Shown piece after piece: positions 8,178-38,655 of a DNA stretch of 64,000 bases (position 1 is the first letter of the stretch; the number at the start of each line of letters is the position of its first letter). Below the pieces are notes generated by a model. That model was not told the DNA's origin. It made no database searches and was given only the letters and a program-made list of their open reading frames with translations. Source of the stretch: an uncultured Bacteroidales bacterium (GTDB lineage: Bacteria; Bacteroidota; Bacteroidia; Bacteroidales; FEN-979); the NCBI GenBank assembly GCA_903926565.1, contig CAIYJU010000046.1, forward strand, positions 62,001 through 126,000, read 5' to 3'. The translations under genes were made by a program, and so were the position numbers.

Positions 8178-8189
8178 GAAATTTACGGT

Positions 8190-9958: not shown

Positions 9959-10220
9959 GACAAGGATTTTTTTACAAAAGTGGTCATTGATTTCGGGATT
10001 GTCAACTTTTTTTGATGATTGTCTGGAAAAACCTGTTGAAAGTATGGGTTTTTCAGGGCATTTACCTGCCAAAAGAATCCGGTCATCGAGAAATTCCGCA
10101 GTTTATCAAAAATAATGATATCTTGCTTAAATTGTTGCTAATATTGCAATCCGTTTTTAATCAGCCACAAACCGCAGATAATTTCATCATTACAAAACCA
10201 AATTTTAACATTTAACGCTC

Positions 10221-12416
10221 ATGAAAACAGGTTTAAAAAATTTAAAATTCGCAATGATCGCGTTGGTTCTATTTTTCTCCGGCGGATCTTTCGGTTATGC
10301 CGAAAACCCGCCCGATGAAGGAATGTGGCTTCCCCTAATGCTCGAACGACTGAATTATGTTGACATGCAGAAAATGGGACTTCACCTTACTGCTGAAGAA
10401 CTTTACAGCATCAACCACAACAGTCTCAAGGATGCCATCGTGGGATTATCCAGCAATGGTGCATCGGGTGGCTTTTTCTGCACTGCCGAACTGGTGTCAT
10501 CCCAGGGATTGCTTTTTACAAACCACCATTGCGGTTATGGAGCCATTCAGAACCACAGCACCCCCGAACATGATTACCTGACCAATGGCTTCTGGGCAAA
10601 ATCGAATGGTGAAGAGTTGTCAAACGAGGCAATGTGTGCCTCGTTTCTTCAGCGGGTTGAAAATGTAACCGATTCGATCATCCCTTTTCTTTCAGATACC
10701 CTGAAAGAATCTGATCGCGCAAATAAAGTGAAGGAAATCTCAACCCGCATTAAAAAAAGAGCGGAACAGGATGGGAAATTTGAAGCTTCTGTCAAATCGT
10801 TTTACGGAGGCAGTGAGTATTACCTGTTTGTTTTCATCACATATAAAGACGTTCGCCTGGTGGGAGCACCCCCGTCATCGGTCGGGAAATTCGGCGGCGA
10901 TACCGATAACTGGATGTGGCCACGCCACACCGGAGACTTTTCAATTTTCCGCGTTTACACCGATGCGGATGGAAAACCTGCCAAGTACAATGAAAAAAAC
11001 GTACCACTTAAACCCGCATATCACCTGCCGATCAGCCTGAAAGGCATCAAGAAAAACGACTTTGCCATGGTATGGGGTTACCCCGGTTCAACATCCCGCT
11101 ATCTCACTTCATTTGGCATTGAATATAATCTCCAGGTCTTCTATCCTACCCTGGTCAAACTTTTCGGGAAAGAGCTGGAAGTGATGAAAGAGCGTATGGA
11201 CCAGGATAATGCCGTTAAAATTGCGTATGCTGCCAATTACGCAGGTATCGCCAATACCTGGAAGAATTTTATCGGCCAGGAACGGATGCTTGTCAGAAAT
11301 AAAGTAGAAGATAAGAAAAAAGTGATCGAACAGGATTTTACTGCCTGGTACAGCAAAGATCCTGCATTGCAGAAAAAATACGGCAAGGTGATCGAAAACC
11401 TGCAAAAGAATTATGCAGACCTGAAGAAAATAGCCATCCCGTTCTTTTATGCCAACCTCGCCGGTTCCGGCCTTGATGTCGTGCAAATGGCCGGTCAGTT
11501 TGGCGGGCTGAAGAGCGCTCTTGAAAAGAAGAACAAAGGCGCTCTAAAAGAGGCCCAGGCGGGATTAACGGAAACCATCAGGGAGCATTTCAAGGAGTAT
11601 GACATGGCCATTGCAAGGAAAACTCTCGCTGAAATGCTAAGAATGTACGCCACTGATGTTGCAAAGTCAGAACAGCCGGCCATCTTTACCCTTATCGAAA
11701 AGGAATATAACAACGACTTTACTGCCTTTGCCAATGCTGTTTATGAAACTTCCGTTTTTGCAACCCCTGAAGGTGCAAATAAATTCGCTGAAAAACCCAG
11801 TCTTAAAGTCTTTAAAAAAGACCTTGGGTGGCAACTTTCTGAATCAATGGAAGAGGCAATGGGTAAATATGCAGCCGCTTACGGCACTGCAAGAGGCAAT
11901 ATTGGTGTGGCCAACCGCCAGTTCATTGCCGGCATCCGCGAGATGAACCCGAAACTTGTCAGGTATCCGGATGCCAACTCCACCATGCGCATGTCTTATG
12001 GCAGCGTGCTTGATTACTATCCTGCTGATGCCGTTCATTACGATTATGTAACCACCCTGAAAGGCGTCATGCAAAAGGAAGACCCTTCCAATGATGAATT
12101 TATCGTCGAAAAGAAGCTGAAAGAGCTGTTCCAGGCAAAAGATTATGGTCAGTATGGTGAAAACGGTGAAATGGTTGTCTGCTTTCTTACAACCAATGAT
12201 ATTACCGGAGGGAACTCAGGCAGCCCTGTTATCAATGGCGACGGTCAGCTGATCGGCCTTGCCTTCGACGGCAACTGGGAAGCCATGAGCGGCGACATCA
12301 TGTTTGAACCCGACATGCAGCGCACCATCAATGTAGATGTACGCTATGTCTTGTTCATCATCGACAAGTATGCAGGAGCTACCAACCTGATCAATGAGCT
12401 TACACTTATAAAATAA
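10221..12416 (+). CDS. S46-family dipeptidyl-peptidase, DPP7-like
   Basis: A 731-residue periplasmic serine peptidase that removes dipeptides from peptide N-termini, used by asaccharolytic Bacteroidota to feed on protein. It has a signal peptide (about 1-27, ending FGYA). The catalytic triad is visible: His in LFTNHHCGYGAIQ, Asp in GGDTDNWMWPRHTGDF and Ser in ITGGNSGSPV. After the Ser, GLAFDGNWEAMSGD has Gly where DPP11 enzymes have an Arg that selects acidic residues, so a DPP7-type preference for hydrophobic or aliphatic P1 is expected. Length matches the family. It ends at a strong terminator and stands alone. Confidence 0.93.
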   Translation: MKTGLKNLKFAMIALVLFFSGGSFGYAENPPDEGMWLPLMLERLNYVDMQKMGLHLTAEELYSINHNSLKDAIVGLSSNGASGGFFCTAELVSSQGLLFTNHHCGYGAIQNHSTPEHDYLTNGFWAKSNGEELSNEAMCASFLQRVENVTDSIIPFLSDTLKESDRANKVKEISTRIKKRAEQDGKFEASVKSFYGGSEYYLFVFITYKDVRLVGAPPSSVGKFGGDTDNWMWPRHTGDFSIFRVYTDADGKPAKYNEKNVPLKPAYHLPISLKGIKKNDFAMVWGYPGSTSRYLTSFGIEYNLQVFYPTLVKLFGKELEVMKERMDQDNAVKIAYAANYAGIANTWKNFIGQERMLVRNKVEDKKKVIEQDFTAWYSKDPALQKKYGKVIENLQKNYADLKKIAIPFFYANLAGSGLDVVQMAGQFGGLKSALEKKNKGALKEAQAGLTETIREHFKEYDMAIARKTLAEMLRMYATDVAKSEQPAIFTLIEKEYNNDFTAFANAVYETSVFATPEGANKFAEKPSLKVFKKDLGWQLSESMEEAMGKYAAAYGTARGNIGVANRQFIAGIREMNPKLVRYPDANSTMRMSYGSVLDYYPADAVHYDYVTTLKGVMQKEDPSNDEFIVEKKLKELFQAKDYGQYGENGEMVVCFLTTNDITGGNSGSPVINGDGQLIGLAFDGNWEAMSGDIMFEPDMQRTINVDVRYVLFIIDKYAGATNLINELTLIK

Positions 12417-23157: not shown

Positions 23158-23610
23158 CTAATCCCACACATAGCGTTCATCATATTCAACATTATACTTC
23201 TTAAGAAAACCCCTGTATTCCTGCTGAAATGTCTTTTTCCTGTGATGCTGCAGCTGATTATCAATGTAAGCCATTACAATACTCACTTCAGCAGGATTTA
23301 CCGAGAATGCACCATACCCATCCTGCCAGTAAAAGTTTTTCAGCGAGCAGTCTTTTGTCTTCATCCATTTCGATGAATGAGACTTCAACTCTTCCAAAAG
23401 TTTCATGAGTGGTATCTTTTTTGAAAGCATGCAAAGAATATGCACATGGTCGGAATCGCCACCGGTTTTTATTACTTGCGAGTCCAGGTTATTACAAATT
23501 CCACCTAAATAGCTGTATAGTTCCAGATTGTAAGGAGGATGAATGACCTGCGCCCGATGTTTGGTACTAAAAACGATGTGGATGTAGTTTTTTACCAGTG
23601 ATTGTCCCAT
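23158..23610 (-). CDS. REP-associated tyrosine transposase (IS200/IS605 TnpA-like)
   Basis: A 150-residue Y1 transposase of the HUH superfamily. It begins MGQSLVKNYIHIVFSTKHR; the HUH metal motif is HVHIL (about residues 56-60) and the likely nucleophile is the Tyr in MAYIDNQLQHHRKKTF (about 115). Such enzymes cut and join single-stranded DNA next to hairpins. Length and motifs match IS200-type TnpA. The flanking palindromes and absence of tnpB favour the RAYT group. Both ends of the gene are intact, with no frameshift. Confidence 0.88.
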   Translation of the reverse strand: MGQSLVKNYIHIVFSTKHRAQVIHPPYNLELYSYLGGICNNLDSQVIKTGGDSDHVHILCMLSKKIPLMKLLEELKSHSSKWMKTKDCSLKNFYWQDGYGAFSVNPAEVSIVMAYIDNQLQHHRKKTFQQEYRGFLKKYNVEYDERYVWD

Positions 23611-27598: not shown

Positions 27599-28294
27599 AT
27601 GGTAAATAAATTACATGGTTCCTCCAACTGCGCCGACTGCAATTGCAAATCTTCCATATTTAAAAATTTATCCCCGCTTGAAGTTGAACTGATCAATGGC
27701 AATCGTTTCCAGGTCAGCTATAAAGCCGGAGAAATTATCTTTAAACAGGGAACCCCCTCTCCTTATTTTGTTTGTGTTACCTCCGGACTCGCTAAAATTT
27801 ACATCGAAGGTTATGGTAAGAATTTGATCCTGGCCCTGATTAAGCCGGTTGATTACATCTTCGGACCAGGCATTTATGTTGACAACCGACACTATTACTC
27901 GGCGGCCGCTGTGGAAGATTGTACTGCCTGCCTGGTTGATGTCACCGTATTTAAAAAGCTAATCCGCGAAAATCCCGATTTTGCCGAAGAATTCATTAAA
28001 CGTGTCTCCCTCCAGTCTATTTTCAATTTCGATCAGGTCATCAGCCTCACCCAAAAACAGATGCATGGTCGAATCGCTGATGTTATCTTCTATCTCTCCG
28101 ATAAAATATACTGCCAGAATCCTTTTGAAATGACCATCTCCCGTCAGGATCTTGCCGACCTTTCCGGCATGTCGAAGGAGAGTGCAATCCGGATTCTGAA
28201 AGAGTTTAAAGAGGAAGGAATCCTTACCACTTCAGGGAACAGCATGGAGGTCCTCAACACCAAACAGCTTCGCCAGATCAGCGAAACCGGCTGA
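27599..28294 (+). CDS. Crp/Fnr-family transcriptional regulator
   Basis: A 231-residue regulator. The N-terminal CADCNC (C11, C14, C16) and a later ECT-like VEDCTACLVD could supply Fe-S ligands as in Fnr, but the spacing differs from E. coli Fnr and is common in Bacteroidota members of unknown ligand. The cyclic-nucleotide-binding fold covers about residues 20-145 (FQVSYKAGEIIFKQGTPSP, GKNLILALIKPVDYIFGP). The winged helix-turn-helix is at about 178-215 (TISRQDLADLSGMSKESAIR). It lies 254 bp upstream of the first multiheme gene, whose promoter carries Fnr-like palindromes, so it probably controls the electron-transfer cluster in response to oxygen, NO or redox state. Confidence 0.88.
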   Translation: MVNKLHGSSNCADCNCKSSIFKNLSPLEVELINGNRFQVSYKAGEIIFKQGTPSPYFVCVTSGLAKIYIEGYGKNLILALIKPVDYIFGPGIYVDNRHYYSAAAVEDCTACLVDVTVFKKLIRENPDFAEEFIKRVSLQSIFNFDQVISLTQKQMHGRIADVIFYLSDKIYCQNPFEMTISRQDLADLSGMSKESAIRILKEFKEEGILTTSGNSMEVLNTKQLRQISETG

Positions 28295-28385
28295 TAATAA
28301 AATCACAGTAATCCCGCCCCGGCAGCTTTTTTTCTCTATTAAGTTCAGATTTCATTATTCTTTTCATAGAAAATGTGGCCACAAC

Positions 28386-28418
28386 TGACATATATCACCC
28401 ATTCATTGATATATGTCA
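28386..28418. promoter_or_regulatory. Twin Fnr-like operators upstream of cytochrome 1
   Basis: TGACATATATCA (28386-28397) and TGATATATGTCA (28407-28418) are reverse complements of each other, with centres 21 bp (two helical turns) apart; the full arms are 15 bp (28383-28397 and 28407-28421). Each has the TGA-N6-TCA shape of Crp/Fnr-family sites. The near one is centred about 69 bp before the end of the -7 box, a usual class I activation distance. The same arrangement recurs at 30020-30052. Confidence 0.7.
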
Positions 28419-28473
28419 GTTATTCTATTAACAAATGTCATTGTCTAATTATCAACACGCTGCATAATCTTCC

Positions 28474-28481
28474 TAATTTTG
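28474..28481 (+). promoter_or_regulatory. -7 box TAATTTTG of cytochrome gene 1
   Basis: TAATTTTG fits TAnnTTTG, 67 bp before ATG 28549. No TTTG is found at -33, which fits a promoter that needs an activator. Confidence 0.55.
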
Positions 28482-28494
28482 CTCCATGTAACAC

Positions 28495-28548
28495 TTTGCA
28501 CAAGTTGTCTGCTGCATAACTTTATTTATTAACAAAAACTGTAAGAGT
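28495..28548 (+). promoter_or_regulatory. Conserved leader of cytochrome gene 1
   Basis: The stretch from TTTGCACAAGTTGTCTGCTG to the start codon is nearly identical to the leader of the second cytochrome gene (30128-30182), including TTATTTATTAACAAAAACT just before the start. Either it reflects recent duplication or it has a post-transcriptional role. No strong hairpin or known riboswitch was recognised. Confidence 0.55.
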
Positions 28549-29847
28549 ATGAAAAATTTTAAATCATTGTTTTTTGCTGCCGGATTGATGATCGCAGCTG
28601 CTTGTTTAACCTTTACCTCCTGCACCAAGGAAGGTCCGCAGGGCCCGGCAGGTGTTGACGGAATTAATGGTGTAAACGGAGTGAACGGAACCAATGGGAA
28701 AGACGCAAATGGCTCCTGCCTGGTTTGCCACACCATTGCCAATTTCGACCAAAAAATTGCTGAATACCACTTTTCTAAGCATTACACAGGAAACACAAGC
28801 TCCAGATTCACTAAATTCTGTGCAAGTTGCCACACCAGTGAAGGATTTAAACAAATCCTGGGAAGCGGAAAGTACGTTGTAGCCAACGATATGCCAGCTG
28901 CCAACAGGATTAATTGCACTACCTGCCATGCACACAGTGGATTTGATTTCACAGCCGACACGGTTTCTCAGATTCTGACTGCCATTAGCCCTGTCTATTT
29001 GAATTACAACAAAAATCTGACAGCCACCGATTTTGGCGCCCTCAACAATTTGTGCGTCAATTGCCACCAGATTCGTGGAGCTACGGCGCTGGTTTATTCA
29101 GATACAACCCTCACTCCTGACGTGATCAACAAATCTTTTGACCAGCTCCCTTACTTCCCGTTTACAAACAGCAGCGACCTCGATACGGTTCAATATCGCG
29201 TTGGCAGAAGTTTCTCGGTTCATGATGGAAACCAGTCAAACCTTTTTGCCGGTATCAACGCGTATGAGTATAAAGGGAAAACATATACCAAGACCTGGAA
29301 ACACTCTGCATTTGCCTGTACCCAATGCCACATGAATGAATACAATGCAGCCGATTCAACAGGCGGACATACCCTGAGAGTGAATGAAGAAGCTTGTAAA
29401 ACATGCCACGGTTCTGATAAACTTACGCCAATTCAAAATTTAATCAAAGGCAAATTAACCGATCTTGCTGAGCTCCTTACCACCAAAAAAATCTTCAAGA
29501 AAACCGTGAATGGAACCACAGGCGCTATTTCATACAGTGCATTGCCAACCCATGACTTCAATGGAAAACTCTATCCTACCACCCAAACTGCAGGTGATAA
29601 GTTTGCCACCAGCTCAAGCAATAACACTGTAAGTCCGACTACCGGCCTGGTGATCTACGGGAACATGCTTAAATATGGAACTGATGCTGACTATGCTATC
29701 AGAATGGGCCGCCCGTGGAAATGGGGTGAATTAGGTGCAGCTTATAATTATGCCTATATTAACAGTGAATTATCATTAGGCCTTCACAACCCTAATTACG
29801 CATTGCAGGTTTTAAATAATTCGATTGACTGGCTCAACGCGAACTAA
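28549..29847 (+). CDS. Hexaheme c-type cytochrome lipoprotein with collagen-like stalk
   Basis: A 432-residue lipoprotein. The signal peptide ends at the lipobox LTFTSC (lipidated C25). Residues 29-54 are collagen-like G-x-y triplets (GPQGPAGVDGINGVNGVNG), a flexible stalk. Six CxxCH heme sites follow: CLVCH, CASCH, CTTCH, CVNCH, CTQCH and CKTCH. The last 130 residues have no heme site. It probably stands on the outer membrane and passes electrons between periplasmic or barrel partners and an external acceptor. It starts with the same MKN signal as the next gene and shares its promoter design. The heme domain family is not one I can name. Confidence 0.85.
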   Translation: MKNFKSLFFAAGLMIAAACLTFTSCTKEGPQGPAGVDGINGVNGVNGTNGKDANGSCLVCHTIANFDQKIAEYHFSKHYTGNTSSRFTKFCASCHTSEGFKQILGSGKYVVANDMPAANRINCTTCHAHSGFDFTADTVSQILTAISPVYLNYNKNLTATDFGALNNLCVNCHQIRGATALVYSDTTLTPDVINKSFDQLPYFPFTNSSDLDTVQYRVGRSFSVHDGNQSNLFAGINAYEYKGKTYTKTWKHSAFACTQCHMNEYNAADSTGGHTLRVNEEACKTCHGSDKLTPIQNLIKGKLTDLAELLTTKKIFKKTVNGTTGAISYSALPTHDFNGKLYPTTQTAGDKFATSSSNNTVSPTTGLVIYGNMLKYGTDADYAIRMGRPWKWGELGAAYNYAYINSELSLGLHNPNYALQVLNNSIDWLNAN

Positions 29848-29865
29848 ACGATTTGCATTTTTCAA

Positions 29866-29900
29866 AAGAGGGCGTCCCAAAATGGACGCCCTCTTTTTTA
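29866..29900 (+). terminator. Terminator after cytochrome gene 1
   Basis: A 12-bp stem, AAGAGGGCGTCC paired with GGACGCCCTCTT, around a 6-nt loop, followed by a T run. It separates the two cytochrome genes, so each is transcribed from its own promoter. Confidence 0.9.
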
Positions 29901-30019
29901 TTCCATAATGACCATACGTTCAGCTGATAATTAAATCACAATACGTTCCTTTTTTTGACACTTTTTTTGTTTTTCCTGCTAAAACCACCCTCCTGCAGCT
30001 TCTTCCATTTTACTATAAT

Positions 30020-30052
30020 TGATATATGTCAACCAACCATTGACATATATCA
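30020..30052. promoter_or_regulatory. Twin Fnr-like operators upstream of cytochrome 2
   Basis: TGATATATGTCA (30020-30031) and TGACATATATCA (30041-30052), centres 21 bp apart. These are the same two 12-mers as at 28386-28418 but in swapped order. The near site is about 70 bp before the end of the -7 box. The 335-bp gap 29848-30182 thus holds a terminator, this operator pair, a -7 box and a conserved leader. Confidence 0.7.
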
Positions 30053-30108
30053 GTTAATATATTAACAAATCTCACCTGTTTATTAACAACCTGTCTTATA
30101 ATCTTCAA

Positions 30109-30116
30109 TACATTTG
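30109..30116 (+). promoter_or_regulatory. -7 box TACATTTG of cytochrome gene 2
   Basis: TACATTTG fits TAnnTTTG, 66 bp before ATG 30183. As in cytochrome gene 1, there is no good -33 TTTG, and a TTAACA-rich stretch lies between operator and -7 box in both. Confidence 0.6.
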
Positions 30117-30127
30117 TTCCGGAACAA

Positions 30128-30182
30128 TTTGCACAAGTTGTCTGCTGCACAAACTTATTTATTAACAAAAACTCTGAAGAGT
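30128..30182 (+). promoter_or_regulatory. Conserved leader of cytochrome gene 2
   Basis: Begins TTTGCACAAGTTGTCTGCTG and ends AACAAAAACTCTGAAGAGT, nearly the same as 28495-28548. The conservation continues into the first codons (ATGAAAAATTT), so it covers the whole leader and the signal-peptide start. Confidence 0.55.
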
Positions 30183-31568
30183 ATGAAAAATTTGAAAAAA
30201 CTAGTTTTTACTGCCGGATTGATGATCGTGGCAGTATGTTTAACACTGACCTCCTGTAATAAGGAAGGCCCCCAGGGTGCTACCGGTGCTACCGGTGCCA
30301 CTGGCGCAACAGGAGCTACCGGTCCTGCCGGTAAAGATGGAACAAACGGCAAGGATGCCACCAACTCCTGCAAGGAATGCCATGCAAAAGCTGTTGTTGA
30401 TGCCGTTGCTACCGAATTCGAGATGTCAAAGCACAATTGGGGTGGTGCTGCATTTGAAGAAGCCGGAAACACATCATGCGGTCCCTGCCATGAGCAGAAA
30501 GCTTACATCTATGTATGTCAGAACAACGTTTCTGCAGCCTTCCAGTTCACCGGCGGCAAGTGGGTAAATCAATATGCAAGCAATGCAGCCAATGCAATTG
30601 GCGAAATCAGCTGCTATACCTGCCACAGCAGTCTGCACACAACGTATGAAAAAACCGACCTGGTTCTGACCAACACGGCAGCTGTACCCATGACCATGTG
30701 GGGCGGTGCCAAAACGATCAACCTGACCCAGGGTGGTGGAACAAGCAATTTATGCGTAAAATGCCATCAGCCACGTCCGTTGGTTTGCGGTAACGATCCT
30801 GCAGGCCGTTTACTGAACTATGACTCAGTGAAGAATTTCCCGACAGCAATGATGTATGACAGTGCTGCAGGTGTAAAAAACACCATGTTGAAGCCATCTT
30901 ACAGAATGCACGTTCACTACGGTGCAGTTGGCGCTGTTTATGCAGGCCAGGGTGGTATTGAATACCCGGGAAGCGTATCGTATGCCAATTCACCACACAC
31001 TACCCTTGCTACCTGTCAGGATTGCCATATGGCAGGTCCGATGACCGGAATCGCAGGCGGTCACTCTTTCAACGTGAGAAACGCCAAAGAAAGCGCTCTG
31101 AGTTCAAGCACTACATGGAATTTCAATGGTTGTAATACCACCGGTTGCCACGCTGCAAGTCCAATCGATGCATCTTCAGCCAAATGGCAGGCAACCAGAA
31201 CCGAAATCAAAGGATTGCTGAATGCACTGGCTACGAAAATCAATGCCTGCGGAGGCGGACATGACATTCTGCATGCCGATGCCAGCGCTGCAAATCTCTG
31301 GGCTGGTATAACAACCGGCAACTATGATGGCTACCTTGATATCTATAGCTCCTCAACCAATCCTCTCGGATACTGGAGAGATCCATATAGCACAAGTGCA
31401 GCCAACATGGCCAAACCAAAATTCCCGAAATTACTGATGGTTCAGACGGGTGCCCTTATCAACTTCCAGTTCTGCTTAAGAGAGTACAGTTTAGGTATTC
31501 ACAATACCGTATATGTAAGAGCTCTTCTGACGAACACGATGGAAGCGATGACTGCTGCCGGTTTATAA
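30183..31568 (+). CDS. Multiheme c-type cytochrome lipoprotein with collagen-like stalk
   Basis: A 461-residue lipoprotein starting at ATG 30183 (MKNLKKLVFTAGLM), where the paralogue also starts; the frame is open further upstream but into the promoter. Lipobox LTLTSC (C25), then a collagen-like stalk of about ten triplets with five GAT repeats (residues 29-60). Heme sites are CKECH, CGPCH, CYTCH, CVKCH and CQDCH, plus an atypical CNTTGCH (C-x4-CH), giving six likely hemes. The heme domain aligns poorly with the first cytochrome apart from signal and stalk, so the two share an N-terminal module but differ in the electron-transfer part. Outer-surface location is inferred. Confidence 0.85.
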   Translation: MKNLKKLVFTAGLMIVAVCLTLTSCNKEGPQGATGATGATGATGATGPAGKDGTNGKDATNSCKECHAKAVVDAVATEFEMSKHNWGGAAFEEAGNTSCGPCHEQKAYIYVCQNNVSAAFQFTGGKWVNQYASNAANAIGEISCYTCHSSLHTTYEKTDLVLTNTAAVPMTMWGGAKTINLTQGGGTSNLCVKCHQPRPLVCGNDPAGRLLNYDSVKNFPTAMMYDSAAGVKNTMLKPSYRMHVHYGAVGAVYAGQGGIEYPGSVSYANSPHTTLATCQDCHMAGPMTGIAGGHSFNVRNAKESALSSSTTWNFNGCNTTGCHAASPIDASSAKWQATRTEIKGLLNALATKINACGGGHDILHADASAANLWAGITTGNYDGYLDIYSSSTNPLGYWRDPYSTSAANMAKPKFPKLLMVQTGALINFQFCLREYSLGIHNTVYVRALLTNTMEAMTAAGL

Positions 31569-31580
31569 TATATCATGAAT

Positions 31581-31616
31581 AAAAAAAAGGCTTCAGCAAC
31601 CCTGAAGCCTTTTTTT
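31581..31616 (+). terminator. Terminator after cytochrome gene 2
   Basis: AAGGCTTCAG paired with CTGAAGCCTT around a 5-nt loop, preceded by an A run and followed by seven T, so it could work on both strands. Confidence 0.9.
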
Positions 31617-31697
31617 ACAAAAAGAAAATTAAACTTGCGTATCTGAAAGAATATTTTTCCATATAATACAATTCGTTCAATCCCAAAAAAACCAATT

Positions 31698-32105
31698 ATG
31701 CAAAGCAATAAGTTGAAAAAATTGATTGCGATCTTTTTCGTGCTTTTTATCTTTTCATCCTGTACAAAGGATCTCATTGTACCGGATCCTCCCGCCCCTC
31801 CTCCTCCTCCTCCTCCTCCCGGTGAAAATCAAATCAGCTATAAGGCAGAAATTCAGTCCATATGGGATGCCAAGTGTAATACCTGCCATGGTAACGGTGG
31901 AACTCCACCCGTTCTGACCGCATCAAAATCCTGGCAGAACATGATGGCAATGCCCGGTATGATCGACACCGTGAATCCTGGAAGCAGTATCATTTATCTG
32001 GAAGTATTGCCACCCAATGGCGGCATGGTTCAGATGGGGCAAACAACCAAGGCAAATGCCGATTCAATTTACAAATGGATCAGGCAGGGCGCGAAAAATA
32101 ACTAA
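31698..32105 (+). CDS. Monoheme cytochrome c lipoprotein with proline-rich stalk
   Basis: A 135-residue lipoprotein: lipobox FIFSSC (C22), a proline stalk (about 29-42, with eight consecutive Pro), and one CNTCH heme site in IQSIWDAKCNTCHGNGG. The heme domain resembles the small c-type domains of planctomycete-type cytochromes, in which the heme motif follows AEIQSIWDAKC. A distal Met may be one of those in MVQMGQTT. It is in the same stretch as the barrel protein (30 bp gap) and probably relays electrons at the outer membrane. No clear promoter is seen. Confidence 0.85.
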   Translation: MQSNKLKKLIAIFFVLFIFSSCTKDLIVPDPPAPPPPPPPPGENQISYKAEIQSIWDAKCNTCHGNGGTPPVLTASKSWQNMMAMPGMIDTVNPGSSIIYLEVLPPNGGMVQMGQTTKANADSIYKWIRQGAKNN

Positions 32106-32135
32106 TCGATTTATTCACACTAATAATTATTCGAA

Positions 32136-33221
32136 ATGCATACATATACAATGGGCAAAATAAAACGAATATTACTGGGTTTTATGTTCCTGATAATAGG
32201 TGCAGGTATGGCCATGGCCCAGGATTCAATTCCTGAACAACCCGCAGAAAAACCACTTGCAAAAGCTGCGTTTGAAAGCAACTATTTCATCGCCGAACAA
32301 ACTGTCGTCCTTCCGCCGGCCAGAACCCTCGAATTCATTCTCATGCACGATTTTGGCACGATCCAGAACCACTGGAAAGACCTTTACGGCATCTGGGGTT
32401 CCTCCAATATCCGCTTCGGATTGAACTACACCATTACCAAAGATCTTCAGGTTGGGTTTGGAACCACCAGGAAAAAACTGCTTCAGGATTTCAGTTTGAA
32501 GTATATTCTTGCCCGTCAGCGTAAGGATGGTTTTCCTGTTTCAATTACGTTCTATGGCAATGTTGCCCTCGACTGCAGAAACAAATCTGCCCTGGGAAAC
32601 AATAAACTGGCTTCTGATCTCGATTATAACGCCCTTGTTACCGATAGTACTTTTAGAAGTAATATCCAAAATCAAATCATTCAAAATGACACGAATGAGG
32701 GGCTGAATTACATCACCTATAACCAGGCAACCGGCCTGGCAGGAAACAACACGACTGACCTCAGTTCGTTGTTTGACCAAACTTTTAAAGCCTCCTATCG
32801 TTTCTCTTATTATGCAGAATTCATGTTCGCACGCAGGTTCTGCAAGATGTTTTCTGCCCAGTTTGCCGTCTCCTGGTTACATTACAACCTCGTCGACGAC
32901 GTTGAAATGTCCAACAATCATGTGAGCAGCAGCATGAAAAACAACAACATCACCATTTCCGGCATCGGCAGGATTAAGGTTAGTCCGCAAACATCTGTCA
33001 TGCTCAGTTATTCTCAGCCTATCGCTACCTACACAAATACTGCTCCCTGGCCAAATTTTGGCGCAGGTGTGGAAATATCCACCAGCACCCACGCTTTCCA
33101 GATTTTCCTGACCTCCGCAACAGGCTTGCTGCCACAGGAAAATTCAATGTATAATTACAATAATCCCTATAAAGGATATATCGTTCTTGGCTTTAATATT
33201 ACCCGGCTGTGGACCTTTTAA
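32136..33221 (+). CDS. DUF5777-type outer-membrane beta-barrel protein
   Basis: A 361-residue protein; ATG 32151 (MGKIKRILLGFMF) is an equally good start and gives a tidier signal peptide, cleaved after AMAQ. The mature part is made of alternating amphipathic beta strands (SNIRFGLNYTITKDLQVGFG, YYAEFMFARRFCKMFSAQF) and ends with an aromatic residue (LWTF), as outer-membrane barrels do. I recognise it as similar to DUF5777-type proteins of Bacteroidota, which are found near cytochromes. In this cluster it could act as the barrel of a cytochrome-porin conduit, but no experimental function is known to me. Confidence 0.7.
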   Translation: MHTYTMGKIKRILLGFMFLIIGAGMAMAQDSIPEQPAEKPLAKAAFESNYFIAEQTVVLPPARTLEFILMHDFGTIQNHWKDLYGIWGSSNIRFGLNYTITKDLQVGFGTTRKKLLQDFSLKYILARQRKDGFPVSITFYGNVALDCRNKSALGNNKLASDLDYNALVTDSTFRSNIQNQIIQNDTNEGLNYITYNQATGLAGNNTTDLSSLFDQTFKASYRFSYYAEFMFARRFCKMFSAQFAVSWLHYNLVDDVEMSNNHVSSSMKNNNITISGIGRIKVSPQTSVMLSYSQPIATYTNTAPWPNFGAGVEISTSTHAFQIFLTSATGLLPQENSMYNYNNPYKGYIVLGFNITRLWTF

Positions 33222-33264
33222 TTCACAGCCAACTCATAGTGTCTAACAATTAATAATAACAAAA

Positions 33265-33678
33265 ATGAAAACAACACAAAAAATCGCAACAATCATGGTA
33301 GCTGCAGTCATTGCTGTAGTTTTCCTCTTTGGCAATGCAGTTCACGCCCAGGCTAAAGCTAAACCATGGCCGGTGCCTGACAAAGACAAAGCAATGAAAG
33401 CTTCTGCAAAAGCAGACCTTGCAACAGGCAAGGAACTCTGGGCAAAACATTGCAAATCATGTCACGGGAGTAAAGGTTTGGGCGATGGCCCAAAGGCTGC
33501 ATCTTTGAAAACCCATCCTGGCGACTTCTCATCTGCTGCTTTCCAGGCTTCTACCGATGGCGAACTTTTCTATCGTACCGACAAAGGTCGCGATGAAATG
33601 CCCGCTTATGAAAAGAAAATTCCTGATGCCAACGATCGTTGGGCATTGGTTGCGTACATGCGTTCAATGAAAAAGTAA
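33265..33678 (+). CDS. Periplasmic class I cytochrome c
   Basis: A 137-residue exported protein with a signal peptide (about 1-28, ending VHAQ). One heme site in LWAKHCKSCHGSKGLGDGP (CKSCH) and a C-terminal MPAYEKKIPDANDRWALVAYMRSM that supplies the distal Met and the closing helix, the standard small cytochrome c fold. It is the likely soluble shuttle between the membrane complex encoded next and the outer-membrane cytochromes. It follows the barrel gene by 43 bp. Confidence 0.92.
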   Translation: MKTTQKIATIMVAAVIAVVFLFGNAVHAQAKAKPWPVPDKDKAMKASAKADLATGKELWAKHCKSCHGSKGLGDGPKAASLKTHPGDFSSAAFQASTDGELFYRTDKGRDEMPAYEKKIPDANDRWALVAYMRSMKK

Positions 33679-33704
33679 GTGCATGTTGATGCTGATATGA
33701 TTAA

Positions 33705-33745
33705 AAATGGGTGTTACAGGGCCTCCCTGTTAACACCCATTTCTT
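33705..33745. terminator. Long hairpin between the two halves of the cytochrome cluster
   Basis: AAATGGGTGTTACAGGG pairs with CCCTGTTAACACCCATTT with a single bulged T, around CCT. A short pyrimidine-rich tail (TTCTTTTA) follows. It splits the cluster into an outer-membrane part and an inner-membrane part and may terminate or attenuate transcription. Confidence 0.7.
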
Positions 33746-33779
33746 TTACACCTCGTTAACTCCCTACAATATAACTACT

Positions 33780-34799
33780 ATGAATTACAAAGCAAATATC
33801 CGGCCTGCATGGGTCGTACTGGTATTGCTGATGCTTTTTACACTTGCATTCGCCCTGGTAAAAACTTCTGATGACACCCCTGCTGCAAAGATTCAGCCCG
33901 AAACGGAAAAACCTTTAAAAGTTGATCTCACAAAGTTCAAAAACGCACAGGAAAACGAAACCTGCCTCAAATGTCACGGGCAATCAAAATATACGTACGA
34001 AAACCCTGAATCGAAAAAAACGGTCACCAAGCGGATGTATTCCGAACTGGTCATGAACCGGGATGTTTTCTACGTTTCAAATCATCGCGAATTTAAATGT
34101 ACCGATTGCCACTCCGAAGATTATGCGACCTTTCCCCATGCCGGAAACCTGCGTATGGAGACAAAAGCCAATTGCATCGACTGCCATGGCGGAGATGAAA
34201 AATATGCCAAATTCAAATTTGAACAGATTGAAGCGGAATTTCAGGCCAGCGTGCACTCTGAAAAACACAGTGAAGATTTTACCTGCTGGATGTGCCACGA
34301 TGCCCACACCTATAAAATCAATGCCCGGACCAACGAAGTCCTTAAAGAAACAATCGTGTACGACAATATGATCTGCCTGAATTGTCATGGTGATTTTAAA
34401 AACTACCAGTTGCTTACGACCAAACTGAAGCCAAACCTGTTAAAAAAACATGAATGGCTTCCCAATCAGGCATCTCATTTCACCCATGTTCGATGCATTG
34501 AATGTCATGCGAAAAATGAAGATACGCTCGTTGTTGCCCATCATGTGGTGTCAAAAAGCCAGGCTGTCAGAAAATGTGAGTCATGCCATTCAAAAAACTC
34601 TATTCTCTATGCCTCCCTCTACAAATACCAGGTAAGTGAAAAAATTCAAAAAGAAGGAGTTCTCAAAGGTCTTTTGACCGGAGAAGCCACCTCCATCGGC
34701 CCGGATAAAAGCAACACCCTGAACATCATTAGCCTGATTATTTTTGGACTAACAATTCTGGTTATCATGATCCATGCGGCGTTACGCATAAAAAAATAA
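33780..34799 (+). CDS. Membrane-anchored heptaheme c-type cytochrome
   Basis: A 339-residue protein starting at ATG 33780 (MNYKANIRPAWVVLVLL); the frame is open further upstream but into the hairpin. An N-terminal membrane anchor (about 10-27) and a C-terminal one (about 315-335, IISLIIFGLTILVIMIHAAL) bracket a periplasmic domain with seven CxxCH sites: CLKCH, CTDCH, CIDCH, CWMCH, CLNCH, CIECH and CESCH. It probably receives electrons from the b-type, Fe-S and NrfD subunits encoded next and passes them to periplasmic cytochrome. It begins a tightly packed run of five genes. Confidence 0.88.
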   Translation: MNYKANIRPAWVVLVLLMLFTLAFALVKTSDDTPAAKIQPETEKPLKVDLTKFKNAQENETCLKCHGQSKYTYENPESKKTVTKRMYSELVMNRDVFYVSNHREFKCTDCHSEDYATFPHAGNLRMETKANCIDCHGGDEKYAKFKFEQIEAEFQASVHSEKHSEDFTCWMCHDAHTYKINARTNEVLKETIVYDNMICLNCHGDFKNYQLLTTKLKPNLLKKHEWLPNQASHFTHVRCIECHAKNEDTLVVAHHVVSKSQAVRKCESCHSKNSILYASLYKYQVSEKIQKEGVLKGLLTGEATSIGPDKSNTLNIISLIIFGLTILVIMIHAALRIKK

Positions 34800-34808
34800 A
34801 ACGAAACT

Positions 34809-35435
34809 ATGAACCACAAAACTACCGAACGACTCTACCTGTACCCTGTCTGGATCAGGCTCTGGCACATGACAAATGCCCTGCTCTGCCTCATATTGAT
34901 TGTAACCGGTTTAAGCATACAGTTTTCAAACCCGGGAACCATGGTTAAATTTAATGCTGCCGTATATGTGCATAACGTTTCAGGTATTATCCTGACAATC
35001 AGCTACTGTGTGTTTTTTATCGGCAATCTTTTTACCCCAAACGGAGCGTATTACGTTATTCCCGTAAAAGGTTTCTTTTTACGGCTTAAAAACCAATTCA
35101 TCTATTATACCATAGGCATTTTCCGTAAAGACGAAGCTCCCTATCCGGTTAATGAAGAGAGTAAGTTCAACCCATTACAGCAGGTTACCTATGTTGTCCT
35201 GATGTACGGGCTTGTTCCTTTTGTAATCCTTTCAGGCTGGGGCCTGCTCTATCCTGAAGTTACCGTTAACAGTTTTGTTGGTTACAGCGGACTTGACCTT
35301 ACGGATATGTTCCATATTACCGCAGGCTTTGGCATCAGCATCATCATGTGTGTACATGTCTATTTTTGCACCATCGGTAAAAACCCGACCAGCAACTTTA
35401 AAAGCATGATCAATGGTTATCATGAATCTCACTAA
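34809..35435 (+). CDS. Cytochrome b561/PhsC-type membrane subunit
   Basis: A 208-residue integral membrane protein with about four long helices. RLYLYPVWIRLWHMTNALLC at the start and later MFHITAGFGISIIMCVHVYF contain the His residues expected to bind two b hemes, as in the cytochrome b subunits of thiosulfate reductase and Ni-Fe hydrogenase. A further His lies in AAVYVHNVSG. It starts 9 bp after the heptaheme gene and probably forms a di-heme quinol site in the same complex. Confidence 0.85.
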   Translation: MNHKTTERLYLYPVWIRLWHMTNALLCLILIVTGLSIQFSNPGTMVKFNAAVYVHNVSGIILTISYCVFFIGNLFTPNGAYYVIPVKGFFLRLKNQFIYYTIGIFRKDEAPYPVNEESKFNPLQQVTYVVLMYGLVPFVILSGWGLLYPEVTVNSFVGYSGLDLTDMFHITAGFGISIIMCVHVYFCTIGKNPTSNFKSMINGYHESH

Positions 35436-35446
35436 AATTTATCAGC

Positions 35447-36409
35447 GTGGAAGAAGAATTGAATAAAAATCAGAAAAACTCACGTCGCCAATTCCTTAAA
35501 AAAGGAATTATTGCCGGCGCCGGGGTCGCCATTGGCGCTGGCCTCATGACGGCATATGTTGACTCCTCAGCAGCTGAAACCGGCGAAAAGGTTAAAGTTC
35601 TTACCACAGATGGTGAGATCATGGAAGTTGACCGGGGGTTGCTTAAACTTCCGCGTGTTTCACGTGAAGAATCCCACGAAGGAATTCCGGGCAGGAAATT
35701 CGTGATGGTCATCGACCTTGGCAAGTGCAAAAACGCACGGAAATGCGTGGAGGCATGCCAGAAAGGTCACCACCTTCCGCAAAGCCAGGAATTCATGAAG
35801 GTGTACCTCCTTCAGGATTCTGAGAAAACCTCGCCCTACTGGTTTCCGAAACCCTGCTTCCATTGCGACAATCCTTTATGCGTTAGCGTTTGTCCGGTCG
35901 GGGCTACCTATAAACGCAGCGACGGAATTGTGTTGATCGACAATGAACGCTGCATCGGATGTAAGTTCTGTATGACGGGCTGCCCTTATTCAACCCGTGT
36001 TTTTGCATGGAAACACTATCCTGAATTTGACCAGGATAAAGAACCATACTCTCCCGAGGCCAGCAGCCCCGGCAAAGAGGGCACCGTTTCAAAATGCGAT
36101 TTCTGTCCCGACCTGATCAGGGTGGGCAAAATTCCTTATTGCGCCTCCGCTTGTCCCATGGGCGTAATCTATTTTGGCGATGTTGATGAGGATACGGTAA
36201 CCAACGGCACCGAAACGTACCAGTTCAGCAAACTCATTCACGACAGAGCCGGTTACCGCTACCTTGAAACACTCGGAACCCGCCCATGTGTTTACTACCT
36301 GCCTCCTGTTGACCGCCAGTTTGAGGTTGAAAGAGGATTCGGAGAGCTGGAGGAATCAGTGAAAGAAAGATACAAAGACACACCATACAGTATTAAAAAC
36401 AAACCGTAA
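35447..36409 (+). CDS. Tat-exported four-cluster iron-sulfur subunit
   Basis: A 320-residue protein of the DmsB/NrfC/PsrB type. I start it at GTG 35447 because the twin-arginine signal (NSRRQFLKKG, about 11-20) follows directly. Cluster regions: C94 with Ala97 replacing the usual second Cys, then C100 and C104; CFHCDNPLCVSVCP; CIGCKFCMTGCP; and CDFCPDLIRVGKIPYCASACP. Three sets are complete, and the first has only three Cys in place. It passes electrons along the periplasmic face of the NrfD protein encoded 2 bp downstream. No molybdopterin catalytic subunit is nearby. Confidence 0.9.
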   Translation: MEEELNKNQKNSRRQFLKKGIIAGAGVAIGAGLMTAYVDSSAAETGEKVKVLTTDGEIMEVDRGLLKLPRVSREESHEGIPGRKFVMVIDLGKCKNARKCVEACQKGHHLPQSQEFMKVYLLQDSEKTSPYWFPKPCFHCDNPLCVSVCPVGATYKRSDGIVLIDNERCIGCKFCMTGCPYSTRVFAWKHYPEFDQDKEPYSPEASSPGKEGTVSKCDFCPDLIRVGKIPYCASACPMGVIYFGDVDEDTVTNGTETYQFSKLIHDRAGYRYLETLGTRPCVYYLPPVDRQFEVERGFGELEESVKERYKDTPYSIKNKP

Positions 36410-36411
36410 CC

Positions 36412-37725
36412 ATGGAACTACAACAAAAAGATCCATTAAGGGAGTTTGCACCACAACTTGAACGGACTTCCATTCTGGGATATGCCTGGATCGTTTTCTT
36501 ACTCGGAGTGATCGGATTGGGCTTCTATGCCTTTCTTTCACAGGTATGGTATGGCCATGAGGTCACCGGCATGCGCGACAATGTGGTTTGGGGGGTATAT
36601 ATTGTGAATTTCATCTTCTTCATGGGAATAAGCTATGCCGGTGCTCTTATCTCTGGCACTTTGCACCTTTTTAAAACTGCATGGCGTAAACCAATCATCC
36701 GGATGGCTGAGTTCATCACAATTATCGCCCTGTTGATCGGCCCCTGTTTCATCCTGCTTTGCATCGGCCGGCTCGATAAGTTGCACTACCTCGTACTGTT
36801 CGGGAGAATCCAATCCCCAATCACCTGGGACGTAATCGCCATTACCACGGATATTTTTGGTTGCTTTATCTTCCTGTATCTATCCTTGTTACGCGACCTT
36901 GCCACCCTCAGGGATGATGAGTTGCTTCAGCTCCCAAACTGGAGAAAGAAACTGTACAAGGTGCTCGCATTGGGTTATACCGGGTTGCCCGAACAGCAAC
37001 AGCGGTTAAACAGGGCAACCGACATCATGGCCGCCATGGTCATTGCCATCGCCATCATCGTGTATTCGGTATTGGCCTGGATTTTCAGCGTTACCCTGCA
37101 ACCCGGCTGGCACAGTACCATCTTCGGACCGTACTTTGTGATCGCAGCCGTCTATTCGGGAAGTGCCGTACTGATTTTATGCATGTGGGCTTTCAGAAAA
37201 GTATATCATCTTGAAGCCTATATTACTAAAAAGCACTTCGTTGCAGTTGGCGTAATCATGCTTGTTCTTGCTGCATTTTTTGGCTATTTTACCTTCAGCG
37301 ATTATCTCACGAAATGGTATGGCTCCGAAAAAAATGATGAATTGCTGATCCAGCTGCTCTTTAAGAAGTTTTACTGGCCTTTCATCATTTCCAACTATAT
37401 CGGGGTGCTTTTACCACTGCTGGTGGTTGGTATCGCCAGGTTCAGAACGATCAGAAACATCACGCTAACGGCTGTTGTTGTGGTTATTGCCTTATGGCTT
37501 AACCGTTATATTATCGTTGTTCCCACCCTCGAATCGCCTTACCTGCCGATCCAGGATTCACGCCCTGAGTGGTTTAGCTATTCGGCTACCTGGGTTGAAT
37601 GGAGCCTTACAGCTGCGGGTGTTGCAATATTTTGCCTCCTGTTTACCGTGGCTTCAAAGTTTATTACCATCGTCCCTGTAACCGGGTTAAGCGGAGAAGA
37701 GAAGAAAGAAGATGTTTTAGTTTAA
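36412..37725 (+). CDS. NrfD/PsrC-family quinone-interacting membrane subunit
   Basis: A 437-residue membrane protein with about ten transmembrane helices. It belongs to the longer branch of the NrfD family, as in ActC/ActF of alternative complex III and similar quinone-linked complexes. Recognisable parts are YIVNFIFFMGISYAGALISG in the early helices and RPEWFSYSATWVEWSLTAAG near the end. It exchanges electrons with quinone and with the Fe-S subunit encoded just upstream (2-bp gap). It forms the membrane base of the proposed electron conduit. Confidence 0.9.
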   Translation: MELQQKDPLREFAPQLERTSILGYAWIVFLLGVIGLGFYAFLSQVWYGHEVTGMRDNVVWGVYIVNFIFFMGISYAGALISGTLHLFKTAWRKPIIRMAEFITIIALLIGPCFILLCIGRLDKLHYLVLFGRIQSPITWDVIAITTDIFGCFIFLYLSLLRDLATLRDDELLQLPNWRKKLYKVLALGYTGLPEQQQRLNRATDIMAAMVIAIAIIVYSVLAWIFSVTLQPGWHSTIFGPYFVIAAVYSGSAVLILCMWAFRKVYHLEAYITKKHFVAVGVIMLVLAAFFGYFTFSDYLTKWYGSEKNDELLIQLLFKKFYWPFIISNYIGVLLPLLVVGIARFRTIRNITLTAVVVVIALWLNRYIIVVPTLESPYLPIQDSRPEWFSYSATWVEWSLTAAGVAIFCLLFTVASKFITIVPVTGLSGEEKKEDVLV

Positions 37726-37755
37726 TTATTCACCGGAACAACTCACTCAAACATT

Positions 37756-38655
37756 ATGAAAAGAGTTTTTGGATATTTCGTTTTATGGTACTTCTTGTTT
37801 TCCTTCGCGATTCAGCCTCTGAATTTATATGCGGAAGAAAAAACTGATTCCACCGCCACGCCGGTAGAATCCCGGATGGCATTGAACTACCTCTGCACTG
37901 CTGATTCAACCATGCTGACTGCCACACTGAGTATAAAAAAAGGTGAAGTTTCACTGGCATTGGAGCATGCAATGGTAGAATTTTCTGTCGTAAACGGAGA
38001 GACCAGCATGGTTTTAGGCAAGGCCAAAACCGACCAGGAAGGAATTGCTGTTCTAAAGGTGCCGATTGCCGGATTAACCGGCGACAAAGAGGGACTGGTT
38101 GCCTATTCTGCTAAATTTACCGCCACTGGCAACTACCCGGCAGCAGAGGCTTCTTTCAGCGCGAAACCGGCTAAAATACGCCTGTTCTTCAGTATTGAGG
38201 ACTCCCTCCACATATTGAAAGTGACCGCTACGCAGAAAAATGAAAAAGGGGAAGAGGTTGCCATCCCGAAAGAAACAGTGTTCATCTATATACCAAGGCT
38301 CTTCAGCCTCCTGAAAATAGGAGAAATAGCCCTTGATGAAAATGGAACAGGAACCCTGGAATTTCCAAAGGAAATTGTCGGGGATACCCTTGGTAACCTT
38401 GTTGTGATCGCCAAAATAGAAGAACATGATATTTTTGGCTTTGCCCAGGGTCAAAACCTGATCAACTGGGGTGTTCACAAGCAATATTACAAGGCCGAAG
38501 TGCCCTCCCGTGAGCTCTGGACGCCGATCGCCCCGATGTGGATGATCATCACCCTTCTCGTCATGCTGGCCGGCGTATGGGCACATTACATGTATGCAGT
38601 GTATGAACTGGTCATGATCAAACGTCTCAGTAAAAAAGACAAACCACTCTTTTAG
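37756..38655 (+). CDS. Exported, C-terminally membrane-anchored protein of unknown function
   Basis: A 299-residue protein with a signal peptide (about 1-26, ending NLYAE), one or two Ig-like beta domains (about 40-230; ALEHAMVEFSVVNGETSMV and GTGTLEFPKEIVGD), and a single C-terminal transmembrane helix (about 258-278, MWMIITLLVMLAGVWAHYMY) with a basic cytoplasmic tail. It has no heme or Fe-S motif. As the last gene of the run, 30 bp after nrfD, it may be a structural or assembly subunit of the complex. I do not recognise the family. Confidence 0.6.
   Translation: MKRVFGYFVLWYFLFSFAIQPLNLYAEEKTDSTATPVESRMALNYLCTADSTMLTATLSIKKGEVSLALEHAMVEFSVVNGETSMVLGKAKTDQEGIAVLKVPIAGLTGDKEGLVAYSAKFTATGNYPAAEASFSAKPAKIRLFFSIEDSLHILKVTATQKNEKGEEVAIPKETVFIYIPRLFSLLKIGEIALDENGTGTLEFPKEIVGDTLGNLVVIAKIEEHDIFGFAQGQNLINWGVHKQYYKAEVPSRELWTPIAPMWMIITLLVMLAGVWAHYMYAVYELVMIKRLSKKDKPLF

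Follow-up and report, generated by a model that had tools for sequence, protein, structure and literature searches.

Through which proteins could a Bacteroidales bacterium pass electrons from its quinone pool to the cell surface? The question is raised by a gene block in an uncultured member of the order (NCBI GenBank assembly GCA_903926565.1, contig CAIYJU010000046.1, positions 62,001 to 126,000 of the forward strand). The window, i.e., the whole stretch of 64,000 nucleotides that was analyzed, carries ten plus-strand genes (28549–38655) downstream of a Crp/Fnr regulator gene, which a first-pass annotation had described as a complete candidate electron conduit. Profile searches of the window's open reading frames (ORFs) with Pfam and NCBIfam recovered all ten at that place and on that strand and backed their families (Table 1). 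In gene order, these are the lipoproteins LipA, LipB, and LipC, a DUF5777 barrel, the cytochromes CytC1, Hepta, and CytB, the Fe-S protein FeS, NrfD, and Ig_TM. Their heme motifs comprise 20 CXXCH and one CX4CH; the earlier figure of about 21 heme c sites is thus correct with the CX4CH of LipB and falls to 20 on CXXCH alone, and since this CX4CH is invariant among 16 aligned LipB sequences, 21 hemes is a fair count for the block. The evidence modestly favors an outward electron conduit that would run from the quinone pool to surface hexahemes.

The first point to settle is whether these genes belong together. A search with NrfD of 61 genomes gave matches in 41, of which 28, including the genome of the window, hold a block-type orthologue (E 1e-188 or better), and the flanks were examined in the 27 relatives (loci L034–L060). 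As far as the contigs permit (their ends interrupt the block at L036, L041, L042, L058, and L059), family-level relatives keep the order LipA/B–LipC–barrel–CytC1–Hepta–CytB–FeS–NrfD–Ig_TM and place the block between asd and a RibF-like gene, which excludes a chance association. LipA, LipB, or both are present in each of these relatives whose 5′ part is covered, with the exception of L060, from another family of the order, whose stretch contains neither and whose CytC1 gene is placed after that of Ig_TM. A wider set of 92 stretches was assembled from the best 80 of 210 named-genome relatives, the window, L063, and ten further loci. The barrel lies within 8 kb of NrfD in 75 of them, and these 75 contain FeS in 75, Ig_TM in 73, CytC1 in 71, LipC in 71, Hepta in 57, CytB in 56, LipA/B in 51, and the regulator in 47 cases, all of which are lower bounds since many stretches are incomplete. 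The co-occurrence of the genes as a block, a check that the first-pass annotation had proposed, is therefore borne out.

Among the same best 80 of 210, the cultivated isolates with the core block, which are harmless bacteria of marine origin, are Lutibacter agarilyticus, L. flavus, L. oceani, L. litoralis, and Yeosuana marina, and the stretches of Flavobacteriaceae (Lutibacter, Yeosuana, and others) are devoid of Hepta and CytB. In L. agarilyticus, the block adjoins hemN, hemE, hemL, hemB, and hemC, a heme supply that is counted in favor of the conduit. By title, 12 of the 80 records are LacPavin metagenome-assembled genomes (MAGs) and four are Loclat MAGs; we take both names to be those of lakes.

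The inner half of the system very probably oxidizes quinol at the inner membrane. The resemblance to Cbc-type and alternative complex III-like quinone complexes that had been noted earlier was upheld on both counts. The NrfD alignment profile retrieves from the PDB the ActC subunit of alternative complex III (6f0k_C, E 2.4e-64; also 6btm, 6lod, and 8k9e), and FeS (320 amino acids, aa) best matches an NrfC/PsrB-type chain (2vpw) and also the Fe-S part of ActB. Hepta, which ends in a transmembrane-like segment, has weak sequence matches in the PDB (best E 0.0013); in L113 and L133, Hepta and CytB form one in-frame protein (528 and 526 aa, respectively), a CbcL-like heptaheme–b561 fusion. Ig_TM is a probable subunit of the NrfD complex, because in a paralogous system of the same genome (L061) NrfD and Ig_TM are parts of one 742-aa protein and 21 of the 61 genomes have an open frame of more than 700 aa for this paralogue.

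The genome of the window (G000) contains further modules of this kind. The paralogous system (L061; G000:C35, about 6700–12042) comprises a Crp/Fnr regulator, FeS, the NrfD–Ig_TM fusion, CytC1, and a membrane protein weakly like DUF2339; it contains neither a heptaheme cytochrome nor a barrel, and it is a minimal quinol:cytochrome c oxidoreductase. A third FeS–NrfD pair (L062; G000:C135, 5420–16402) immediately precedes SCO1, COX1, and further genes of the oxidase type, where this fold family may feed an aa3-type oxidase. A NapC/NirT-type cytochrome with six CXXCH motifs and an ImcH-like layout is encoded at G000:C59, and a protein of this type adjoins the block in several relatives. As a fixed part of the system it was rejected: long matches occur in 23 of 28 block genomes and in 9 of 33 others, a tally that ignores kinship and excludes short hits, and in which one match is split over two ORFs and one is 345 aa long.

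The direction of flow is probably outward. Directly upstream of LipC–barrel, and on the same strand, L128 encodes an EtfA-type protein, two HdrC/TfrB-type Fe-S proteins, and an acyl-CoA dehydrogenase, of which the dehydrogenase alone passes its curated cut-off and the other types score below theirs. Similar-size ORFs stand in like order before LipC–barrel in L129, L132, and L135, the latter two with one extra ORF ahead of LipC. This neighborhood suggests, on circumstantial grounds, that electrons released when acyl-CoA is oxidized pass to menaquinone and exit by way of the block.

At the outer membrane, the system depends on a barrel whose only matched Pfam family is DUF5777 (205.5 bits against a curated cut-off of 23.1) and whose profile finds no match in the PDB by sequence. 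The AlphaFold2 model (mean predicted local distance difference test, pLDDT, of 80) has 12 strands; residues 156–164 and 180–215 fall below pLDDT 50, so that a few extra strands are possible. Foldseek places 4rl8 first (E 2e-6; template modeling score by target, 0.50), followed by FadL, FapF, OmpG, NanC (0.68 by target), and general porins. The outer-membrane barrel of the first-pass annotation is thus correct in identity and not in size. A 12-strand barrel is too narrow for a multiheme cytochrome, and the block therefore cannot work as MtrAB does. The notion of a known porin–multiheme conduit is not supported by this strand number or by distribution: in a phylum sample of 296 genomes (completeness at least 90%), the DUF5777 profile matches 110 (E 1e-20) versus 22 for NrfD (E 1e-60), with the two lying within 10 kb of each other in seven.

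The proposed partner of the barrel is LipC. Of the 83 barrels in the examined stretches, 78 have a LipC-family ORF no more than 1.5 kb away; four of the other five barrels are at stretch ends, and the fifth (L063) has LipC just past the limit. The phylum sample contributed nine more barrel loci, three of them chosen for long frames and none for LipC; one of the nine is fused (L187), and the other eight have a LipC-family ORF nearby; at L192, the barrel is overlapped by a longer reverse-strand ORF in the ORF list. As an observation in its own right, L063 and L188–L195 show a DUF5777 barrel, a LipC-type cytochrome, and often YceI as a small locus outside the block in many Bacteroidota; among the nine loci just described, many include such a YceI-type ORF, three of these ORFs being confirmed by Pfam and the others recognized by eye.

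The strongest evidence tying the barrel to LipC is a natural fusion of an N-terminal cytochrome (CX4CH) with a C-terminal DUF5777 domain; it occurs in another class of the phylum, in three of the 146 genomes searched (G090, G376, and G409). The fusions of G376 and G409 are 53–55% identical to that of G090, and the Pfam match of the cytochrome part is weak (E 0.16). The fusion loci L187, L197, and L198 have the domain order of Cyc2. Additionally, within the genus (12 loci), two LipC/barrel allele pairs switch jointly, and NrfD stays 85–95% identical. In the covariation set (51 of 81 loci, all eight genes present, 500 permutations), the partial correlation of distances is 0.46 for LipC–barrel, which no permutation reached (0/500), versus −0.07 for LipC–CytC1. 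Taken together, LipC and DUF5777 somewhat probably constitute an outer-membrane electron port, in which LipC would sit at the mouth of the barrel.

Two further aspects of this pair were considered. The barrel histidines H71 and H319 are conserved without exception in the 72 aligned DUF5777 barrels, whether or not these belong to a block; a heme held within the barrel by these residues was judged unlikely, since the residue pattern of strand 1 puts H71 on the lipid side, a placement reasoned from residue alternation. Similarly, a heme-less LipC in some relatives was dismissed, the motifs there being CX1CH, CX3CH, or CX4CH. The LipC of L083 and L085–L088 carries the unusual heme motif CXCH (C-T-C-H).

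Beyond the barrel, LipA and LipB are placed at the cell surface with fair likelihood. A LipA-type profile (34 sequences) finds in the PDB 6I5B (OcwA; E 1.8e-13), a cell-surface terminal reductase according to an excerpt of PMC6703420, followed by NrfA, 6qvm, and octaheme nitrite reductases, and the match of LipA/B covers the C-terminal heme pair and the helix bundle. For the two hexahemes, the earlier label of surface-type heme lipoproteins agrees with this best relative, and their outward face is predicted. Non-motif histidines are invariant at four positions of LipA (78, 225, 274, and 413) and nearly so at two (129 and 252), and six are invariant in LipB (83, 151, 244, 271, 293, and 439), which gives one candidate distal histidine per heme, as expected for bis-His electron carriers. 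LipA and LipB carry a lipobox, and nearly every full-length member of the family has a GXY stalk of 3–13 triplets behind the lipid cysteine, L052 having almost none. LipA and LipB are the sole members of their family in the genome of the window; in the phylum sample, the LipA profile matches 87 genomes (E 1e-3), many with collagen-only hits, and full-length matches (at least 300 positions, E 1e-60 or better, frame below 500 aa) occur in 12.

That the stalked hexahemes are obligatory is not supported: they were seen in the 51 stretches given above, and another lipoprotein occurs in some others. An EB_dh (PF09459) lipoprotein precedes LipC in L158, L160, L161, L162, and L165; the stretches of L160 and L165 are without NrfD, L162 holds LipA besides EB_dh, L159 has a 262-aa ORF at the EB_dh position, and neither LipA/B nor EB_dh is seen in L156 and L157. 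Furthermore, in six of ten other phylum loci (L167–L171 and L175), LipA-family genes are situated at or near the end of a cluster encoding proteins with 12–14 and 6–8 hemes, mostly one with four, and a 423–458-aa protein of barrel-like look, for which the two tested had no Pfam hits. The clusters of L167, L168, and L175 add Rieske-type, cytochrome-b-type, and 11-heme ORFs (Pfam-confirmed in L168). LipA is thus a module shared by two different envelope systems, and LipA/B give the impression of an exchangeable terminal component.

The possibility that the block conceals a catalytic reductase was also considered and dismissed: none was recognized there by Pfam or NCBIfam, with no molybdopterin profile having been run, and 65 of the 75 blocks have no unassigned ORF above 150 aa within their span. 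The remaining ten contain 4-heme proteins (L126, L128, and L129), a NapC-type protein (L131), EB_dh (L162), and unannotated ORFs (L129, L133, L141, L152, L156, and L159). These results agree with the first-pass statement that the block contains no terminal oxidoreductase.

Based on these observations, we propose that two inner-membrane modules, an ActBC-like FeS–NrfD–Ig_TM unit and a CbcL-like CytB–Hepta unit, would oxidize menaquinol and that both would pass electrons to the soluble monoheme CytC1. CytC1 would reduce LipC, which together with the 12-strand barrel may form one outer-membrane unit resembling a split Cyc2. From there, electrons would reach the collagen-stalked LipA and LipB, which may serve as surface terminals toward an acceptor outside the cell, for instance Fe(III) or humic matter.

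Several points weigh against this proposal. With a 12-strand barrel, an unbroken chain of hemes through the outer membrane cannot be seen. Many genomes that lack the NrfD block encode DUF5777–LipC, frequently together with YceI, and the basic job of this pair thus need not be respiration. The covariation control is not selective, given that 0/500 was also obtained for CytC1–barrel (r 0.34), Ig_TM–CytC1 (0.28), and Ig_TM–barrel (0.14), and the linkage of LipC and the barrel as neighbors may explain part of the signal. For the terminals, the single LipA sequence has no PDB match at E 0.01, its model is of low confidence (pLDDT 66) with weak Foldseek matches (best E 0.06, NrfA), and an ORF of the LipA/B family is absent from 24 of the 75 barrel–NrfD stretches, and 11 of these 24 extend at least 4 kb on both sides.

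Several of these points lend themselves to a different explanation, in which LipC–DUF5777 acts as a pore whose periplasmic mouth carries a cytochrome; a small dissolved redox species (iron, flavin, or quinone-like) would enter this pore and react there, and LipA/B would add capacity or serve insoluble partners. YceI is a lipocalin-like family that binds isoprenoids, and its presence at DUF5777–LipC loci without NrfD would fit such a role, as would the inconstancy of LipA/B and the structural neighbors of the barrel, which are small-molecule or secretion channels; Cyc2 is explained likewise, by dissolved Fe2+ entering its pore, in the available text of PMC8406198. However, this explanation gives no account of the hexaheme or EB_dh (heme-b type) lipoprotein genes right before LipC, and we regard it as rather unlikely. 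The opposite direction of flow, by which electrons from Fe(II), a partner cell, or a reduced mineral would be imported to the quinone pool or the oxidases, is quite unlikely. NrfD, CbcL, and Cyc2 types can in principle run in both directions, and the genome has a bd oxidase as well as the NrfD paralogue beside COX1; against import, menaquinol-type modules have low potential, and the EtfA-type and acyl-CoA dehydrogenase genes by a related block indicate quinone reduction by organic compounds.

It is also improbable that LipA and LipB are themselves catalytic NrfA-family reductases of nitrite, hydroxylamine, or sulfur compounds, the block then being an ordinary respiratory chain that ends at the outer membrane. 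Their profile matches to NrfA and octaheme nitrite reductases and the Pfam match of LipA to Cytochrom_C552 (E 6.5e-6) would suit this role, and OcwA itself reduces nitrite slowly, as stated in the excerpt of PMC6703420; nevertheless, no CXXCK motif is present in the aligned LipA/B heme sites, the six hemes are matched by six conserved distal-histidine candidates, so that none is obviously open, and the collagen stalk stands behind the lipid cysteine in nearly all full-length members. An assimilatory role, in which surface reduction of ferric complexes would serve iron acquisition or redox homeostasis rather than respiration, seems hardly probable. It would be consistent with HmuY-like type IX secretion system proteins after the block in L137 and L060 (a TonB receptor was confirmed in L137) and with L156–L159 and L161, which retain the core without hexahemes, but two quinol-oxidizing modules and up to 21 hemes appear costly for this purpose, and many carrier records are the lake MAGs mentioned above. 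The outward conduit to LipA and LipB remains the reading that we moderately prefer.

Control of the block is probably exerted by the neighboring Crp/Fnr regulator, which is predicted to act by binding to tandem TGAYATATRTCA operators. In addition to the two tandem pairs (Table 1), a TGAYATATRTCA site with one mismatch lies upstream of the regulator gene itself. Mononucleotide-shuffled versions of the window contain a mean of 0.5 and a maximum of two such sites, and the 4.69-Mb assembly has seven perfect sites, four of them in the block, with none for the backward control pattern. A wider regulon was rejected, as two of the other three genome sites are inside ORFs and one is ~90 bp upstream of a 601-aa ORF. 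Among the relatives scanned (L074–L111), 31 of 38 have at least one site with at most one mismatch; in L087, L106, and L109 the sites are not on the 5′ side of the block, and six of the seven site-less stretches begin inside or just before the block, which L079 does not. Elsewhere in the window, a minus-strand 150-aa ORF (23158–23610) has, by eye, the look of an IS200/REP-type transposase.

Table 1. Window positions of the regulator gene, the operator pairs, and the ten genes of the block.
Feature	Position	Strand	Remarks
Crp/Fnr-family regulator, likely block regulator	27599..28294	+	PF00027 and PF13545; same position in most family-level relatives
Tandem palindromic operator pair upstream of LipA	28386..28418		TGACATATATCA at 28386, TGATATATGTCA at 28407, 21 bp apart; 0 mismatches
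LipA, lipoprotein with collagen-like GXY stalk, hexaheme cytochrome of the NrfA/OcwA superfamily	28549..29847	+	6 CXXCH
Second tandem operator pair, upstream of LipB	30020..30052		Palindromes TGAYATATRTCA, 21 bp apart
LipB, second collagen-stalked hexaheme lipoprotein	30186..31568	+	5 CXXCH and 1 CX4CH; ATG start internal to listed TTG ORF
LipC, proline-rich monoheme cytochrome c lipoprotein, putative barrel partner	31698..32105	+	1 heme
DUF5777 outer-membrane beta-barrel	32136..33221	+	PF19089 E 1e-60; 12 strands in model
CytC1, periplasmic monoheme cytochrome c	33265..33678	+	PF13442 E 8e-13
Hepta, membrane-anchored heptaheme cytochrome c	33783..34799	+	ATG start; 7 CXXCH; PF14537 E 4e-13
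CytB, b561/HydC-type cytochrome b	34809..35435	+	PF01292 E 8e-23
FeS, periplasmic Fe-S protein, ActB C-terminal/DsrO-like	35447..36409	+	Tat (twin-arginine translocation)-like start; Tat profile weak, E 0.055
NrfD, ActC-like, predicted quinol-oxidizing membrane subunit	36412..37725	+	PF03916 E 3e-30
Ig_TM, Ig-like/transmembrane protein with C-terminal transmembrane segment	37756..38655	+	Weak Pfam hits only

A broader generalization can be offered tentatively, as a possibility to which we give less than even weight. The DUF5777 barrel with a LipC-type monoheme cytochrome may represent a phylum-wide second class of cytochrome–barrel electron port, distinct from Cyc2, smaller than those described (12 strands), and made of one or two proteins. 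Toward the cell interior, such a port would connect to quinol dehydrogenases that can replace one another (NrfD, CbcL-like, or ImcH-like), and toward the exterior to heme lipoproteins that are equally exchangeable (stalked NrfA-type hexahemes or EB_dh, by lineage). If this is true, Bacteroidota of anoxic lakes and marine sites would move respiratory electrons to the outer membrane by a widespread and largely unrecognized route, DUF5777 would gain a function in the 110 of 296 sampled genomes that encode it, and a testable physical question would arise, namely how a 12-strand barrel and one heme link the periplasm to the surface.

How does the block compare with known systems? The first-pass annotation knew of no such combination in Bacteroidota. 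No description of the block was recognized in the excerpts of literature on DUF5777, collagen-like multiheme cytochromes, extracellular electron transfer (EET) in Bacteroidota, Lutibacter, and Ignavibacteria, inner-membrane cytochromes of Geobacter, Bacteroidales of Lac Pavin, OcwA/OmhA, or Cyc2-like proteins in Bacteroidetes; the statement nevertheless holds only in part, as unspecified novel porin–cytochrome clusters in lake Bacteroidetes are mentioned in a portion of PMC6344600, and five CbcL homologues and one ImcH homologue in the phylum in a portion of PMC6295460. Analogous to MtrCAB, OmbB–OmaB–OmcB, and ExtABCD, a quinol dehydrogenase, a periplasmic cytochrome, an outer-membrane barrel, and multiheme lipoproteins are encoded together. 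Contrary to these systems, the block has no soluble periplasmic multiheme cytochrome able to thread the barrel, CytC1 being monoheme, and its modeled barrel has 12 strands, versus 26 in MtrAB-type barrels and 18 in ExtB, according to excerpts of PMC8406198 and PMC6148476, respectively. An MtrB-type conduit was dismissed on this strand number and because the genome has no match to PF11854 (MtrB_PioB).

At the inner membrane, NrfD resembles ActC and FeS the Fe-S part of ActB in alternative complex III (ActABCDEF), whereas the block has no ActA pentaheme, FeS is without a MopB-like domain, and Ig_TM is present instead. The heptaheme–b561 pair, fused in the two loci mentioned above, recalls Geobacter CbcL/CbcBA in layout; the text available from PMC9129911 describes CbcL as a nine-heme c domain with a six-helix diheme b domain, in contrast to seven c-hemes and normally two genes in the block. 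Geobacter ImcH has its counterpart, likewise by layout, in the separate 6-CXXCH NapC/NirT-type protein of the same genome. LipA and LipB share the heme core of the OcwA/NrfA superfamily and differ in their six hemes, collagen stalk, and lipid anchor; OcwA has two open heme sites in the same excerpt of PMC6703420, versus none expected in LipA/B.

A further analogy in design is that to Cyc2, which likewise joins a one-heme cytochrome to an outer-membrane barrel, an arrangement also reached by the DUF5777 fusions. This comparison, too, is one of layout: in the window, the lipoprotein and the barrel are split, and the DUF5777 model, by its 12 strands and its Foldseek neighbors, does not match the 16-strand phosphate-porin-like barrel of Cyc2. 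In the consulted part of PMC8406198, the single heme of Cyc2 is a periplasmic plug, and dissolved Fe2+ must enter the 16-strand pore; by analogy, the same limit would apply to LipC–DUF5777. Although it coincides in full with no known conduit, the block would work like a conduit for EET.

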